Source of the DNA: Ochrobactrum teleogrylli
GTDB lineage: Bacteria > Pseudomonadota > Alphaproteobacteria > Rhizobiales > Rhizobiaceae
DNA: 64,000 bases
NCBI RefSeq assembly: GCF_006376685.1
Contig: NZ_VEWL01000006.1
Location: forward strand, 62,001 to 126,000
Reading direction: 5' to 3'
Part shown: positions 12,602 to 19,691 of the stretch, one piece after another
Layout of the letters: every line of letters begins with the position of its first letter
Numbering within the stretch: the stretch's first letter is position 1
Translations under genes and position numbers: made by a program
The notes under the pieces: generated by a model
What the model saw: only the letters and a program-made list of their open reading frames with translations
Databases searched by the model: none
What the model was told of the DNA's origin: nothing

Positions 12602-13741
12602 ATGCAGAACACACCGCTTGACGATTTGAAGGTGGTTGAACTGGCCCGTATTCTGGCAGGCCCGTGGGTCGGTCAGACGCTTTCCGATCTGGGAGCGGAC
12701 GTCATCAAGGTCGAAAGCCCGGAAGGCGACGACACGCGCAAATGGGGGCCTCCCTTTATTGAAGTCGAAGGCGAGAAGTCGGCTGCCTATTTCCATGCCT
12801 GCAATCGCGGCAAACGCTCGATTACAGCGGATTTCCGCTCGGAAGAAGGGCAAGAGCTGGTGCGCCGCCTCGTGGCCGATGCAGATATTGTCATCGAGAA
12901 TTTCAAGCTCGGCGGCCTCGATAAATATGGCCTTGATTATGAGAGCCTCAAGGCCGTCAATCCGCGCCTTATCTACTGCTCCATCACCGGATTCGGCCAT
13001 GATGGGCCCTATGCCGAACGGGCAGGTTATGACTTCATGATCCAGGGCATGGGCGGAATCATGGATCTGACTGGCGAGCCGGACCGTGAACCGCAGAAGA
13101 TCGGCGTGGCTTTTGCAGACATTTTCACCGGCCTTTATAGCGTGATTGCCATCCAGTCGGCGCTGATCATGCGCCAGCGCACGGGCAAGGGGCAGCACAT
13201 CGATATGGCGCTGTTCGACTGCATGTCAGCAGTCCTCGCCAATCAGGCCATGAACTATCTGGCCTCTGGGGTGTCACCGAAGCGCATGGGCAACGCACAT
13301 CCCAATATCGCGCCATATCAGACGCTGCCGGTTTCCGACGGCTATTTCATCATCGCTTGCGGCAATGACGGCCAGTTTGGCCGACTGGTCGGTCTCTTGG
13401 ACCTTGCAGAGCTTGCGAGCGACGAGCGCTTTGCCACCAATGCTGCCCGTGTCGCCAACCGGACCGCACTCACAGAACTGCTGGAAGAACGCACCCGGCA
13501 ATGGAAGCGCGACGACCTTCTGGCGCGCCTGGAAAAGATCGGCGTTCCGGCCGGGCCAATCAACTCGGTTGCCGATGTCTTTGCCGATCCGCAATTCATC
13601 GCACGCGGGATGAAGATCGATCCGCAGGGCGTACCGGGGTTGCGTACGCCGATCCGCTTCTCCGATGCAGAACTGAAAACCGACCATCGCTCACCCAATC
13701 TTGGGGAAAACAATTACGAAATATTCAATAAATTAAAATAG
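12602..13741 (+). CDS. gcdG: Class III CoA-transferase, probable glutarate CoA-transferase, with exchanged C-terminus
   Basis: This CaiB/BaiF-family enzyme probably moves CoA from succinyl-CoA to glutarate, feeding gcdH. The 379 residues include the N-terminal LARILAGPWVGQTLSDLGADVIKVE and the predicted catalytic Asp173 in FADIFTG. The C-terminus ends GENNYEIFNKLK. Two further copies of the gene's 3' end downstream (16595-16762 and 19112-19205) instead encode GEHSEMVRSELD, and they keep a stop codon and terminator. The present tail therefore looks like a replacement brought in with the accessory block. Function is inferred from the gcdR-gcdH context. Confidence 0.85.
   Translation: MQNTPLDDLKVVELARILAGPWVGQTLSDLGADVIKVESPEGDDTRKWGPPFIEVEGEKSAAYFHACNRGKRSITADFRSEEGQELVRRLVADADIVIENFKLGGLDKYGLDYESLKAVNPRLIYCSITGFGHDGPYAERAGYDFMIQGMGGIMDLTGEPDREPQKIGVAFADIFTGLYSVIAIQSALIMRQRTGKGQHIDMALFDCMSAVLANQAMNYLASGVSPKRMGNAHPNIAPYQTLPVSDGYFIIACGNDGQFGRLVGLLDLAELASDERFATNAARVANRTALTELLEERTRQWKRDDLLARLEKIGVPAGPINSVADVFADPQFIARGMKIDPQGVPGLRTPIRFSDAELKTDHRSPNLGENNYEIFNKLK
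13580..13712 (+). repeat. Copy A of the repeated gcdG 3' end
   Basis: This in-gene segment is about 95% identical by eye to copy B (16595 onward) up to the CGCTCACCCAAT core. After that the sequence becomes AT-rich and the copies diverge. This is the likely left junction of the accessory block. Confidence 0.8.
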
Positions 13742-13844
13742 TACAATATTATGATAAGACAGTAAATGTAGAGCGCTTTATATATTTATAGATTGAGTTC
13801 ATCGATCTTGTTATAATTATTATTAATAATATTAAGGTGACTTT

Positions 13845-16463
13845 ATGAGAATATCTAATTTACCTTTTTCTATTTTCCTGGGTTCGACATCTTTTTTGAC
13901 TGCGTCGACACTTCTCGCTACAGCAACAGACCTACCCGGGGGAATTCCGGGCATAAGTCAGATAAATAACAACGTCCGAGGGGGGACTGGAAACGGTTTT
14001 GGGGGCGGTAACGGGCTCGATGGTGTTAGCCCACCAAGCAATGGAAATGGTGGTGCCGGCTTACCCGGCGCCCAGGGTAGTCGATTAACCATCGGGGGAG
14101 CTGTCGGCGCGACGACAATTGATCCCACTGTGATGGTGATCCAAGGTAACGCTGGCGGAAATGACAATGGGGGAAGTGACTTTATTCCAGGAGGGCCGAC
14201 AGCTCGGGGGTCGGGCGGCGGTGGCGGAGGCGCCGGTGTTTATCTTGACGGTGTGACGGCAACAACGCATTCCGGCCTTGTTATAATTGGCGGAATCGGC
14301 GGTAGAGGTGGCGCAGCACGAACTAATTCTGGTATTGTCACCGACGCGTTATCTGGCGGCGGTGGTGCCGGTGTCGTCGTGAACGGCGGCTATTTTTCCA
14401 ATGTTGCAGGAGCGCTTATCGTTGGGGGCGCTGGCGGCAGCGGAGGGAATATTCAGGTCGCCGGTGTAGAGGGTGGTGGCGGCGGCGGCGATGGTGTTGT
14501 TGTTCAAAATGGAGCGACGTTTCTAAATGAGGGGCGGATAGAAGGGGGAACAGGCGGCTTGCCAGATCGTCTGGCTGCTCCATCCAATCTTTTTGGTGCC
14601 GGTGGTGCTGGTATTCGCGGTGGCAATAATGCTTATATAATCAATGCAGGCACGGCCAAAGCCGGCGATTCAAGGCGAACAACTCAGCCAGCTTCGGATG
14701 CAATCATGCTTGTGGGAAGCAACGGAACGCTGGAATTGCGAGCCGCATCGAACATAGACGGGCGGGCCACGGCAATATCCAATTCCAATAATCGTCTTGC
14801 TCTTGGGGGTGCAGTCGACGACCGTTTCGATGCGAATGAAACCGGCAGCAAATATGTCGGCTTCGATAGTATCCGCAAAATAGGAACAAGCCGTTGGGAT
14901 GTCAGCGGTGACACGAATACTTCGCCGTTTTCAGTAGAAGAAGGAACTATGGCTGTCAACGATACGCTGGGTGGCCCTTTGACGGCTTCAGGCGGCAGAC
15001 TGATAGGTTCGGGCAGCGTGGAATCTATCGTTGATCAGGCGGGTGGGACGGTAGCGCCCGGCGATAATAGCTTTGGAACTATGACTGTTCGGAAAAATTT
15101 TACAGCCCAAGGCGGAACGGTGGAAATAGCCACAGTGCTAGGTGGAGACCAGTCTGCGACAAGTCGCTTGCTTGTTGAAGGGAGTACGATTGGCAGTGGT
15201 TTCGTCCGAGTGATTAACAAAGGCGGATCGGGTGCACTGACTGAAAAAGGGATTACCGTAATAGCGATCCAAGGGCAGTCCGGGGCCTCTTTTGCTCTTG
15301 TAGGGGATGCCGTTGCAAATGATGGGAGATCTGCCGTCGTCGCAGGAGCGCATGCATATAAGATTCTTAATGATGGCGCTGCATCCAATGATCGCTGGTT
15401 TCTAAGCTCGCGCGACAAAGATGGCTCTCCCATCCTCAATCCAGGTGCTCCACTCCATGAAGGAGCGGTGCAGACAATGAGGTTGCTTAACCGTTTGCCT
15501 ACGCTGCAGCAACGTGTTGGTAACCGTTACTGGAGCGGAAGGGCAAATTCAATTGTCGAACAGGGAGACGGGCCAGGGGTAAATGATGGCGCACCTTCTC
15601 CTGAAGCCGGTTCAGCAATTGACGGCAATGGCATGTGGGCGAGTATAGGAGGAGACCATACGCATCTGAAGCCAGAGTGGTCGCCAACGGGCCTGAAACA
15701 GGAAACGAATATTTTTACACTTCGCGCCGGATTTGACGCGCTTCTTTATGAAAATGGAACAGGAAAACTGATCGGTGGCCTATTAGGTCAATATGACAAT
15801 GCCCGCTCAAAAATCAGAGCTACGCAATGGAACGGCCAGGTTGACACGCAAGGAGGCGGTGTTGGAGCCACATTGACCTAGTATAATTCTAATGGATTCT
15901 ACGTTGATGGTCAGGGGCAGATCAACTGGTACAATAACGACTTCTACTCTTCCAGTGCATCGCGATCAATTGCGGACGATAAGGATGCCAGAGGTTACTC
16001 CCTCAGCATTGAAACGGGACAGAAAATCGCCATCAGTGATCGTTGGTCGGTCATACCGCAATTACAGTTACTTTGGTCATCGCTTCGGGCTGATCGCTTT
16101 CGCGATGTCTGGAATGTGGACATAAATCTGTCAAAAGGACAATACTTAACAGGACGTGCCGGATTATCCCTTGATCACGGACGCTCATGGTATTCGCAGA
16201 ATGGCACTCTTAGTCGGGCTAGTGTAGCTGGAATCGTCAATATATATCAGGAAATGATAGACGATTCGGTAGTTCGTATTTCAGATATTAAGCTTGATAC
16301 CAAAACAGACCGTACCTGGGGCGGGATTGGGATCAATGGAAACTATTCCTGGAGAGACGATAAATATTCCGTATATGCCAACAGCGGAATAGATACGTCA
16401 CTTAACAACTTTTCAGACAGCTATTCATTCAATGGCGCACTTGGCTTCCGAGCAAAATGGTGA
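13845..16463 (+). pseudogene. Autotransporter adhesin interrupted by an in-frame TAG
   Basis: This was a type V secretion protein of 872 codons. It has an N-terminal signal sequence (about residues 1-27), a Gly-rich passenger with many GGGGGAG-type runs (residues 30-250), and a beta-helix-like passenger. A C-terminal autotransporter barrel ends in aromatic RAKW. Codon 679 (15879-15881) is TAG within an otherwise intact frame. Downstream residues resume family sequence (GFYVDGQGQINWY) with no frameshift. The family usually has Trp or Tyr at this place, so one base change explains the stop. Without readthrough, the truncated 678-residue product lacks most of the barrel and could not be exported. 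It is the cargo of the first islet, with AT-rich flanks. Confidence 0.85.
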
Positions 16464-16594
16464 GCTGTAACCCAACGCAAGCTTAGCTCTGCAGCAGCAT
16501 GATTTGTATTGGAATTTCCACAGCCAACATCTCGATTACGATTGTACCAGGGTGTTGACAAGCATGACATTCAGCTATTCTCGGGAATCTACAT

Positions 16595-16762
16595 TTTGCC
16601 CATCCGCAGTCCATCGTACGCGGGATGAAGATCGACCCGCAGGGCGTACCGGGGTTGCGTACGCCGATCCGCTTCTCCGATGCAGAATTGAAAACCGACC
16701 ATCGCTCACCCAATCTGGGCGAACATAGCGAAATGGTCCGGTCTGAACTGGATCGAAAATGA
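16595..16762 (+). repeat. Copy B of the gcdG 3' end, with original stop codon
   Basis: This segment is near-identical to 13580-13712. In the gcdG frame it continues past the divergence point to encode GEHSEMVRSELDRK and a TGA. It has no start and is a detached gene tail marking the right border of the autotransporter islet. Confidence 0.85.
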
Positions 16763-16769
16763 AGTGATC

Positions 16770-16795
16770 AACCCCGCTCCCGCGGGGTTTTCTTT
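16770..16795 (+). terminator. Terminator attached to gcdG tail copy B
   Basis: The stem CCCCGC/GCGGGG is followed by TTTTCTTTG. It resembles the terminator after copy C, so the tail and its terminator seem to have moved together. Confidence 0.75.
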
Positions 16796-16804
16796 GTGTG
16801 GCAT

Positions 16805-16948
16805 CGTTACTTGAATCTGAGCGCAAAGCCACGCCACGAAAATGCCGCTCCCCTTGATAAAGATGACCGCCTAAACCAAATACCACTCGTTGCCTAGGCT
16901 TGGCGTTCGCCGGCGGATCTTGCTGGTATAGGCGCGCCCAAACTTATT
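16805..16948 (-). pseudogene. IS6-family transposase remnant
   Basis: The minus strand encodes KFGRAYTSKIRRRTP then LGNEWYL. This matches the IS6/IS26-type pattern K-F-G-x-A-Y-x3-[IL]-R-R-R-x-P-x2-G-[DN]-x-W-x-L, which normally continues DEV with the catalytic Asp. Here that place reads V-stop-A-V, followed by VIFIKG, so the fragment is degraded and inactive. Both ends of the element are missing. It lies at the left end of the second islet. Confidence 0.6.
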
Positions 16949-17149
16949 GACGTTAAATAAGACAGACCACCCAATGCCTGCTTGGCAATGCTCAAAATTT
17001 TTTTTCACCCTAATGTATTAACAGAATTTCATTCAGTTATCTGAACGAGTATACGATGAAAATAACCTCAGGAATTCAAAAATAGTTCTTGAGATAGTTT
17101 TTTAACGCAAAAATTCATGAACGAATTTTTATGCTTATCGAGCTCAATT
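16949..17149. other. AT-rich intergenic stretch in second islet
   Basis: No gene is seen here. AAAAATTC (17109-17116) and GAATTTTT (17123-17130) form a weak AT-only inverted repeat just past the stop of the minus-strand gene and may serve as its terminator. Confidence 0.4.
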
Positions 17150-18202
17150 TCAAGCCGTATTCTCGCAACTGTCGGATTTGTTATTAGAAGAATCATCATC
17201 AAGCATTCCCAGAATCATTTCGGAGAGCAGGTCCTGCGTTCCCTTCAATGCATCTGCCAAATCCTCGTCGGTTGGGAATACCAGTTCAGCAGCGACATTG
17301 TCCTGCACAATCCTGGCGAGATTGTCCAAAGCTACATAAATGTAATCGTCCGGCGTTTGCGCGGTTGGCAAATCAATGAGGTGTGTATCGACCTGCTTTG
17401 GGTTCATGAAATCACGGATGATGATTGAGTTTTGATTCAATACAGACGTCGTCCAGATCGATAGAACTACAACATATAGATTCTTCCAGTGCCGGTCGCC
17501 AATTTCCTTCTTCCATCGCTCCAAGGTTTGGCTAACGCCTTTAATCTGCGCATCTGCAGCAAACCGCATGTTCGTACTTATGTTGTCGTGGATGCTAGCG
17601 GTGAATTTTTTGAATTCCTTGATCGAAATTTGCCCGGATTCAATCGTCTTATCGATATAGCCAACTCCAGCTTTGATAATTTTCCGGCTGGATATCTCCA
17701 GTTCATCAGGAATATCAGCGCTCCGAAGTTGACGCTTGGCGGTCTGAAGCGTTCTTGAAAACTCAGACAGCTTGGCGACCCAATCCGTGGTGTCCGATCC
17801 ATTAAGGTAAGGGGCTATCAGTGTGAATATTCCCAATGGGACATGTGCAACCGATTTCGCCAACTCGAAAGTCACAGCGATGGGATGGAGCGTCTCCCTT
17901 TTGCCATTAAATATCAGCGTGTACTCTCCACCCTTCGCATCGTTGTTCACGATGATCACCGGCGAAAGATGATTGATGAGCTCGGCTTTCAACGCAGCAT
18001 AGTTATGCTGCATGTCGGTATCGATCTGAATGATCGCATTGCGGCCTCTGACCCGTTCGCTCGACCAGAACTCCGTCATGTCCAGATCATGCGGATCAAT
18101 GTCTTTTGACCTGCGATGATGAGAGCGCGACCGTGTACTCTGGCTGATTGGCTGGCGGCCCGCGCCGTGTTTGACCGGGCATGCTTGCTTGTGCTGTTCC
18201 AT
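17150..18202 (-). CDS. Unknown 350-residue protein of the second islet
   Basis: I do not recognise this protein. The N-terminus (residues 1-45) is rich in His, Arg, Ser and Lys and probably disordered. A central region (about 95-130) has a moderately hydrophobic stretch, VAHVPLGIFTLIAPYL. Residues 135-235 look mainly helical, and the C-terminal 40 residues are acidic. A second hydrophobic patch, KNLYVVVLSIWTTSVL (about 243-258), could be a membrane helix. It lies 100 bases downstream of a cysteine hydrolase gene on the same strand, so the two may be cotranscribed. It is between detached gcdG tails and is probably horizontally acquired. Confidence 0.65.
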   Translation of the reverse strand: MEQHKQACPVKHGAGRQPISQSTRSRSHHRRSKDIDPHDLDMTEFWSSERVRGRNAIIQIDTDMQHNYAALKAELINHLSPVIIVNNDAKGGEYTLIFNGKRETLHPIAVTFELAKSVAHVPLGIFTLIAPYLNGSDTTDWVAKLSEFSRTLQTAKRQLRSADIPDELEISSRKIIKAGVGYIDKTIESGQISIKEFKKFTASIHDNISTNMRFAADAQIKGVSQTLERWKKEIGDRHWKNLYVVVLSIWTTSVLNQNSIIIRDFMNPKQVDTHLIDLPTAQTPDDYIYVALDNLARIVQDNVAAELVFPTDEDLADALKGTQDLLSEMILGMLDDDSSNNKSDSCENTA

Positions 18203-18302
18203 GATTCAATTTGTTCCCCTTGTTTGTAATGAAGGCACCACGGATACCCCGTTTTCTTGTTGGCACGGCAATGACTAGTGCCAACAAGATGCGCCTGTTT
18301 CT

Positions 18303-18893
18303 TTATCCGAGTTCGTCAACGCTCGGAACGACTACACCGTAGAGATCGGCAATAGTTGCCAATGCGCTGTGATGCAGTTGTTCTGATGAAACTTCGGTAA
18401 GATTGATTTGCAACGGCCGCGTGGCACATGCATTGGCAACAATGGTTGGTTTCTTCCCCTCCAAGAAAGCCCTTGCCGTCGTGAACAACACACACATATG
18501 GGTCATGAAACCCGCGACGATGACGTTATCGTGGCTTGCGCTGTTCAGAAGATCCGCCAAGTTCGTCCCCACGAATGCATCGGGGGCGGTTTTGACAACG
18601 ACGGCTTCGCTTTCGATCGGGGCCACATGGGAGTGAATCTGCCCAATCTCTGCATGGGTGTCGTATGGAGTGCCAACTCCACCGTCATTGACGATGTGGA
18701 TCACCGTTGCACCCGCTTCGCGCGCGCGCTTCAACAACTTGGCAGCGGAATCGAGCGCCTGTTGCCAGCCATCGAGTTCCATAACACCCTGAGTGTAAGT
18801 GTTCTGGAAATCGATCATGATTAACGTCGAGTCCCCCAAATGAGCAGGGGTCTCGTCAAAGCCATTGAGTTGACGGAGTGTTGTACGTGCCAT
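18303..18893 (-). CDS. Isochorismatase-like cysteine hydrolase
   Basis: This 196-residue protein has the isochorismatase/nicotinamidase-like alpha/beta fold. The catalytic triad is visible as Asp28 (IMIDFQN), Lys101 (VVKTAPDAF) and Cys134 (THMCV), with the preceding cis-peptide region GFMTH. Such enzymes hydrolyse amides or N-carbamoyl groups; the substrate cannot be told. It is the upstream gene of a two-gene unit with the unknown 350-residue protein and is cargo of the second islet. Confidence 0.85.
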   Translation of the reverse strand: MARTTLRQLNGFDETPAHLGDSTLIMIDFQNTYTQGVMELDGWQQALDSAAKLLKRAREAGATVIHIVNDGGVGTPYDTHAEIGQIHSHVAPIESEAVVVKTAPDAFVGTNLADLLNSASHDNVIVAGFMTHMCVLFTTARAFLEGKKPTIVANACATRPLQINLTEVSSEQLHHSALATIADLYGVVVPSVDELG

Positions 18894-19111
18894 AGCCTAC
18901 CCTTCCTGAATCTACAGGTTTAAGAGCCCAACTGAAAATTAAGTTGCGCGATTTCAGCAATTTGCGATTCCCTGTTTGTTGAAACCGGAAGATCACATGG
19001 ATTGGACTGAAACCGCTCGCAAAGACCATGACCTGAGAACCCTACCATTTGCAACTGACAGTACCGACAGGTTGGTAGCCGAGTAAGAAGGGAACAACTG
19101 AGATTACCGTC

Positions 19112-19205
19112 CCGCTTCTCCGATGCCGAGCTTAAAATCGACCACCGCTCACCCAATTTGGGAGAGCATAGCGAAATGGTTCGATCGGAGCTGGACAAGG
19201 CATGA
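19112..19205 (+). repeat. Copy C of the gcdG 3' end, with stop codon
   Basis: This encodes, without any start, FSDAELKIDHRSPNLGEHSEMV and RSELDKA then TGA, the same tail as copy B. By eye it is more diverged in DNA than A and B are from each other. Homology begins abruptly at CGCTTCTCCGATGC. It marks the right border of the second islet. Confidence 0.85.
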
Positions 19206-19210
19206 ATCAA

Positions 19211-19236
19211 AAATCCCGCTCAGGCGGGGCTTTTCT
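19211..19236 (+). terminator. Terminator attached to gcdG tail copy C
   Basis: The hairpin CCCGCTCAGGCGGG is followed by CTTTTCTTTG. It has the same layout as the terminator of copy B and is probably the ancestral gcdG terminator. Confidence 0.7.
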
Positions 19237-19432
19237 TTGCTGATATGCCGTTGGTGCAGTCTTCCACGGCAACCATGACGCTGAACGCCTTGACGACGGC
19301 ATAAGCCGTGCCGCCAACAGCAAGATGCAGTTCGTCAACAGCTTCATTGGTGATCCGCTCCCACTGGTCGTCCCGAAGTGAGTCGCAATCCATCGCAGAT
19401 CTCCAAAAATCAGCATTGAACCTGATTTGCAC
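19220..19432 (-). pseudogene. Possible IS5-family transposase N-terminal fragment
   Basis: A 70-codon minus-strand frame contains MDCDSLRDDQWERI (about 19393-19352), which resembles the start of many IS5/IS427-group transposases. After it the sequence no longer follows the family. No inverted repeats or DDE residues are seen. This is a relic at best, and resemblance by chance over 14 residues is possible. Confidence 0.35.
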
Positions 19433-19542
19433 GTCCGGGGGAATCCCAAAACATTAAATCGTCACCACAGCCTAGCACAGCCATCTAAGAGAAGGAGAAT
19501 ATCGAGAGTCGGAGCTGAAACTGTTTATAGCAGAGCTTGGAA

Positions 19543-19570
19543 AAACAAAAACGCCCGAAAGGGCGTTTGC
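19543..19570 (-). terminator. Terminator of tRNA-Leu(GAG)
   Basis: The hairpin AACGCCC-GAAA-GGGCGTT is followed on the minus strand by TTTGTTTTT. It lies about 37 bases past the tRNA 3' end. Confidence 0.75.
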
Positions 19571-19606: not shown

Positions 19607-19691
19607 TGGTGCGGTCGAGAAGACTCGAACTTCCACGGGTTGCCCCACAGCGACCTCAACGCTGCGCGTCTACCAATTCCGCCACGACCGC
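19607..19691 (-). tRNA. tRNA-Leu (anticodon GAG)
   Basis: This 85-base tRNA has a 5' GCGGTCG acceptor strand pairing with CGACCGC, an encoded CCA, and a long variable arm typical of tRNA-Leu. The anticodon loop TTGAGGT gives GAG, reading CUC/CUU. Its 3' end faces the gcdG accessory block, a usual orientation for an integration hotspot. No duplicated tRNA 3' end was found. Confidence 0.95.

Follow-up and report, generated by a model that had tools for sequence, protein, structure and literature searches.

Homology-facilitated illegitimate recombination (HFIR) has been described in competent species, where the illegitimate junction mostly has 3-10 bp of microhomology and each insertion comes with a deletion of comparable length, ~1 kb on average (PMC3240628). 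Here we describe a locus that invites comparison with this process, in a 64,000-nucleotide stretch of the Ochrobactrum teleogrylli genome (contig NZ_VEWL01000006.1, positions 62,001 to 126,000; hereafter the window, with coordinates counted from its first letter). The locus is the interval between gcdG, which encodes the resident CoA-transferase III (12602..13741, + strand), and tRNA-Leu(GAG) (19607..19691, - strand), an integration hotspot of the genus. It holds three copies of the gcdG 3' end that bracket two cargo islets, and the original prediction read these as two successive insertions into a 3'-end target, each displacing the older tail. In our reading the interval is probably a hotspot patchwork, in which an eroded tRNA-Leu island was overwritten by HFIR and islet 1 entered separately. 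Two different processes, together with the allele of another species, best account for the three look-alike ends.

Alignment bore out the threefold presence of the gcdG tail. Tail A (13580..13708, + strand), the left copy of a 129-bp direct repeat, lies inside the gcdG open reading frame (ORF). Tail B (16595..16796, + strand; tail match 16595-16762) is a displaced native-type end with stop codon and terminator, and tail C (19112..19238, + strand; tail match 19112-19205) likewise has a stop and a terminator, the latter of the type found in the related genomes G028, G007, and G005. The C-terminal ends read GENNYEIFNKLK in A, SELDRK in B, and SELDKA in C. As had been predicted, the resident gene, an intact ORF of 379 aa, has its last codons replaced by GENNYEIFNKLK and has lost its own terminator. 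The tails match beyond chance: in a whole-genome search with gcdG, B was recovered at E 2.7e-50 and C at E 2.2e-10, and the only other direct repeats of at least 60 nt (seed 11) in the window lie at 834-1772, so chance repeats were rejected as their source. The repeats at 834-1772 form two pairs of direct repeats (74%, spaced ~565 bp). The gcdG-like bases immediately 5' of 19112 belong to an integrase relic and not to gcdG.

The genome of the window falls into the GTDB genus Brucella, on its Ochrobactrum side. For comparison we used 35 genomes of the genus, the window's own and 34 others, and a gcdG match was present in all 35. The native state of the locus is seen in a near-relative prophage contig (IMGVR_UViG_2844225640_000006, here L211) obtained by a pattern scan of viral_contigs. 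Its gcdG is 96.4% identical to that of the window over 1107 bp, ends in SELDRK, and is followed by a B-type terminator, a spacer of the type found in genome G024, and a tRNA-Leu(GAG) end fused to the prophage; the opposite end of the contig carries the neighbouring patatin gene, a whole tRNA-Leu(GAG), and the prophage integrase. In the 18 of 72.5 kb of L211 that were read, no islet, tail C, or mop gene (molybdenum-pterin binding) lies between gcdG and the tRNA end. Genome G024 resembles L211, with a B-type end directly before the tRNA and without C or mop, and its type of spacer was not found in the window. Because of the uncargoed state of L211, B is taken as the native end of the lineage and C plus mop as foreign, unless L211 itself has changed. 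One further pattern match in viral_contigs (L210) was taken as chance, as blastn gave no match to the window at E <= 1e-5.

The GENNYEIFNKLK end is absent from all 33 other genus genomes with a readable gcdG end, from L211, and from the 120 listed of 122 hits among cluster representatives (90% clusters), and viral_contigs contains no exact match to a 24-mer of the A end. This agrees with the proposal that the resident end is new and that of B the normal end of the lineage. In the 34th genome, G002 (L132), gcdG is apparently frameshifted early, and its frame stops after 92 aa. Altered last codons seem tolerable, because gcdG ends at 373-374 aa in 12 of the 34 other genomes. The original prediction had also proposed to look in related strains for single and double occupancy, and here the outcome was negative: no tail duplication was found in any of the 34 other genomes (genome-wide, with 12 candidates scored per genome, plus 0.7 to ~12 kb downstream), nor, one 23-bp match aside, a second tail within the flanking sequence covered at 80 further loci, of which some belong to these genomes. 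Short terminator-stem matches that begin at or after the stop codon, such as a 32-bp copy ~7.4 kb downstream in G022, were not counted as tails. A family-wide tail search covered 394 genomes, 327 of them with a match, and among the matches listed two frames fall below 300 aa, B of the window itself (64 aa) and a frame of 124 aa in G122.

The allele affinities of the tails place C apart from the other two. Between A and B there are 8 differences in 129 positions, and both have, like L211, the codon ACC (in ELKTD), where G024, G028, G007, and G005 have ATC. B is closest to G024 (9 differences in 99 positions), C is closest to G028, G007, and G005 (7, 7, and 11 of 99, respectively), and B and C differ from each other at 21 of 99. 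The G028/G007/G005 type also extends to the terminator of C, to mop, and to the spacer that follows mop. In the 1-kb flanks, these three genomes and G024 are about equidistant from the window, and polarised flank sites place the window outside G024 and the clade of the other three (115 sites vs. 46 and 44). Because the tail affinities disagree with the flanks, we propose exchange between lineages at the gcdG-tRNA spot, and the allele comparison points to another species as the source of one of the three ends. On these affinities, tail C is evidently an allele of another lineage and not of the lineage of A and B. The view of C as the oldest of the gene's displaced tails had to be given up, both on these affinities, with C nearest to other species, and on the uncargoed state of L211 and G024, which lack C and mop.

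At its left edge, tail C adjoins a relic of a tRNA-Leu(GAG) tyrosine integrase (19071..19119, + strand), oriented as in tRNA-Leu prophages, so that the statement that no integrase is visible no longer holds. The relic matches integrases beside tRNA-Leu(GAG) at 39 of 49 positions (L213) and 40 of 49 positions (L193 from G033 and L194 from G011), whereas the best of 300 random 49-mers from the window reached 29 of 49 on the L213 integrase (mean 23.1, sd 1.4). At E <= 1e-3, no locus but L213, L193, and L194 matches the relic in a set of 211 other fetched loci (2.45 Mb). Its frame reads W*PSKKGTTEITVPLL, against WQPSKKGSSEVTVPLL in the integrase. An integrase, now dead, thus probably once stood beside this tRNA-Leu(GAG). 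Relic and tail C meet in 8 bp of microhomology, CCGCTTCT (19112..19119, + strand), present in both the integrase and gcdG; by our arithmetic, a random join sharing at least 8 bp is expected about once in 10^4. Such an edge does not fit two like events at one 3'-end target.

To the right of tail C, the foreign type continues through the truncated 3' part of mop (19220..19355, - strand) and a spacer (19481..19545), both of G028/G007/G005 type. Between them lies a fragment of a dispersed repeat, delimited by alignment (19356..19480), that replaces the start of mop. This fragment recurs in four other genus genomes and 95 plasmid records, with no annotation under the matches shown, and is probably a second insertion-sequence relic. 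Between ~19541 and ~19555, on few diagnostic sites, the sequence reverts from the G028 type to the native type. In L213, the integrase position that matches lies ~0.4 kb from the tRNA, so the inserted ~0.43 kb and the putative deletion would be of similar size.

The integrase family to which the relic belongs is found at the same tRNA elsewhere in the genus. A tyrosine integrase stands beside it in G033, G011, and the L213 contig, and that of G013 gives a Pfam match below the cut-off; on account of the integrase-bearing insertions in these four, we regard the tRNA-Leu(GAG) end as an integration hotspot. As far as it was listed, the protein sequence of the integrase is identical in three prophages, those of G033 (L193), G011 (L194), and the window's relative (L213), which suggests the recent spread of one phage family carrying this integrase.

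Islet 2, between tails B and C, carries two genes on the - strand, one for a 350-aa protein of no known family (17150..18202; relatives up to 78% identical) and one for an isochorismatase/cysteine hydrolase (18303..18893). The pair also occurs on the Streptomyces clavuligerus plasmid pSCL4 in the same order and orientation, with ~70% DNA identity over the matching third. The 350-aa protein has distant relatives in three other of 297 family genomes and no match in the phage collection; relatives also occur in Paraburkholderia, Burkholderia, and Lysobacter. Between this cargo and the integrase relic lies the 5' relic of an IS5-family insertion sequence (18917..19063, + strand, right limit approximate). 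For the left flank of islet 2, the other fetched loci gave no match and the 34 other genus genomes a single weak one (71%, E 1.7e-4, in G007). The tRNA 3' end AATGGTGCGGTCGAGAAGA was found once only, at the tRNA itself, allowing up to three mismatches. Judging from their adjacency, islet 2 and the integrase may once have formed one element. We read islet 2 as the remains of a tRNA-Leu(GAG) element and, because of the missing second AATGGTGCGGTCGAGAAGA copy, do not file it as a member of this group.

Islet 1, between tails A and B, begins with AT-rich non-gcdG DNA (13709..13844, + strand) that comprises the new gcdG end and the upstream region of an autotransporter gene (13845..16463, + strand), which is interrupted, and not read through, by an in-frame TAG at 15879-15881. 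The best relative of the first part of the autotransporter is 54% identical. The flanks of the islet (13742-13844 and 16464-16594) have no match in the 34 other genus genomes, and its flanks including 13709-13844 have none in the other loci fetched. The islet is flanked by the direct repeat of the gcdG segment (129 bp, 8 differences), as integration by a single crossover (Campbell/att) requires. Of the five changes private to B, four fall at gcdG positions 985-1001, in the left margin of the repeat, and the two private to A fall in its right margin (1101 and 1104); at the one remaining difference (1020), the base of B is shared with G028, G007, and G005. Such edge-clustered differences are the pattern that a single crossover with tapering homology, via RecA or an integrase, predicts.

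At least three events would be needed to produce the present gcdG-tRNA-Leu(GAG) interval, and both their order and the enzymology of each step are a reconstruction of ours. A tRNA-Leu(GAG)-targeted element would once have been integrated here, leaving islet 2, the IS5-family relic, and the 49-bp integrase relic. DNA of a related species (~0.43 kb, with gcdG end C, mop, and spacer) may then have overwritten the integrase end of this element, coming in from the tRNA side: a homologous crossover close to the tRNA would have formed the right junction, and an illegitimate join at the 8-bp microhomology within the integrase the left one. This step would have destroyed the integrase and left tail C. 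In a separate event, DNA with the autotransporter would have entered the gcdG end across the 129-bp repeat, through one crossover with a circular molecule or through end displacement. The last gcdG codons would thereby have been replaced and the native end B shifted downstream. Of the three mechanisms that the original prediction had left open, homologous recombination with other strains comes close to this reading. Its two successive insertions fit the A/B pair and fail for C, which comes from another lineage and is joined to the integrase relic.

Several points weigh against the overwritten-island reading. The integrase relic is only 49 bp long; in a less strict control, L213 was matched at E <= 1e-3 by 6 of 400 random 150-mers (best among the matches listed 1.5e-6, vs. 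4e-8 for the relic), and the integrase of G013, although also beside tRNA-Leu(GAG), does not match it. To the left of islet 2 there is no copy of the tRNA 3' end, which leaves the left border of the supposed island unexplained. L211 is the sole near relative found and could itself be a changed strain. The flanks set the window outside G024 and the clade, yet the native-type end resembles G024, so exchange at the locus was probably more complex than the three named events. The donor of C is unsampled, since C differs at 7-11 of 99 positions from every member of its clade, and the edge clustering of A and B comprises seven changes only and was noticed post hoc. In addition, in E. coli conjugation, the junctions of three of four HFIR clones lacked homology, and HFIR is rare (PMC3240628).

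Four other explanations deserve comparison with the overwritten island. An end displacement that produced both islets, in which linear DNA anchored in gcdG brings a tail and cargo and joins the resident tail illegitimately, is possible but less likely; for islet 1 it overlaps with the preferred reading and is its main rival there. It gives the right displaced order for A and B, the left edge of B has the word TTTGCC in common with gcdG, and the same mechanism is invoked for a Vibrio cholerae precedent (PMC5361080). However, the edge-clustered differences between A and B favour a single crossover, and the homologous side of C lies on the right and not in gcdG, with the left join in the integrase. 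Tail C might also have arisen in cis, if a second gcdG of type C once lay downstream of the island and a deletion at the microhomology removed the integrase end together with the start of this copy. The 8-bp microhomology is equally expected of a simple deletion, but we think this origin unlikely, as it presupposes that a gcdG of another lineage already stood next to the tRNA as a second copy. None of the 34 other genus genomes shows such a copy, and L211 has only the B-type end before the tRNA.

Gene-restoring integration has parallels in prophage e14 in icd and in the tandem cis-mobilizable elements at fda. By analogy, the two islets might have been inserted site-specifically, one after the other, at the gcdG 3' end, as cassettes that lack an integrase or were mobilised in trans and that each carry a gene-restoring tail. 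The topology of A and B is indeed that of attL and attR with a gene-restoring attP (a 129-bp repeat with outer-edge divergence), and the new end is in frame and of similar length (379 aa vs. 381 aa in the nearest relatives). Against this stand the absence of duplicated tails from the stretches searched in the 34 other genomes and 80 further loci (the 23-bp match aside), the other allele lineage of C, which begins at the integrase microhomology and not at a shared core, and the membership of the relic in the tRNA-Leu(GAG) integrase family; we consider this explanation quite improbable for the locus, and reject site-specific use of the gcdG end as a genus-wide habit. Similarly doubtful is a narrower form of this idea, that the last, non-conserved gcdG codons are a landing site for integrase-less cassettes with a gene-restoring 3' end, of which islet 1 would be one; if true, it would, with the overwritten tRNA-Leu island, place two entry mechanisms within one 6-kb hotspot interval. 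An assembly artefact that joined several loci is scarcely credible: the three tails differ in sequence and thus are not one locus repeated by mistake, and the whole window sits inside a single contig, in a genome with a stated completeness of 99.99% and contamination of 0.09%.

Variability of the interval is also found in other genomes of the genus. The tRNA lies at most ~0.45 kb from the gcdG stop in 26 of the 34 other genomes (G002 counted by the end of its gcdG match), at distances of 1.8 kb in G029, 9.8 kb in G013, 14.7 kb in G027, and 67 kb in G033, and the interval is split by contig ends in G011, G023, and G010. G021 (L124) is rearranged, with the tRNA-Leu/patatin side inverted and 22.5 kb from gcdG. 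Ten of the 34 genomes have a tandem pair of tRNA-Leu(GAG) genes ~300 bp apart here (L133, L134, L138-L141, L143, L144, L147, and L149). Within gcdG itself, the differences between the window and L211 cluster, with 15 in 150 bp (783-927), a density reached by 4 of 2000 permutations. This region is more variable in all eight other species compared, and import of the gcdG body from another species was dropped as a candidate, as none of these eight shares the patch.

If the overwritten-island reading is true, the locus is a natural, base-resolved record of an island that lost its integrase through DNA of another lineage, fused to it at eight shared bases. Should such joins be common, they could account for islets at tRNA hotspots that lack an integrase, with no appeal to trans-mobilisation. 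The locus also calls for caution, since gene ends repeated at a hotspot do not have to mark a succession of displaced targets.

In the features of HFIR described in PMC3240628 and PMC2884548, namely one homologous side (here a probable one, on few diagnostic sites), one illegitimate join at a short microhomology, and foreign DNA that replaces resident DNA, the right-hand part of the interval resembles the described cases. In contrast to these, it is a natural locus with a relic and no experiment, its donor and the size of its deletion are inferred, and its segment of ~0.43 kb is below the average of ~1 kb given in PMC3240628. Arrays of Rhs and type VI secretion system effector genes, in the account of them in PMC5361080, likewise have older 3' ends stacked behind a resident gene and are explained by HFIR, whereas here the gene is a metabolic CoA-transferase, its ends come without an immunity gene, and the displaced order applies to A and B only. 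With prophages and islands that target tRNA genes and have degenerate integrases, the locus shares the tRNA-Leu(GAG) hotspot, the L213-like orientation of the integrase, insertion-sequence relics, and horizontally shared cargo; it differs in that the integrase end is replaced by a gcdG end of another lineage with mop, and no attL repeat remains. The known Brucella phage BiPBO1 adjoins a lysine tRNA and not tRNA-Leu(GAG) (PMC4729917). The system of PMC5635113 likewise combines flanking core genes, variable content, and exchange among lineages in the absence of an active integrase, whereas one of the two joins here looks illegitimate and not homologous. Compared with these systems, the gcdG-tRNA-Leu(GAG) interval shows a recombination history of a familiar kind that can be read unusually well.

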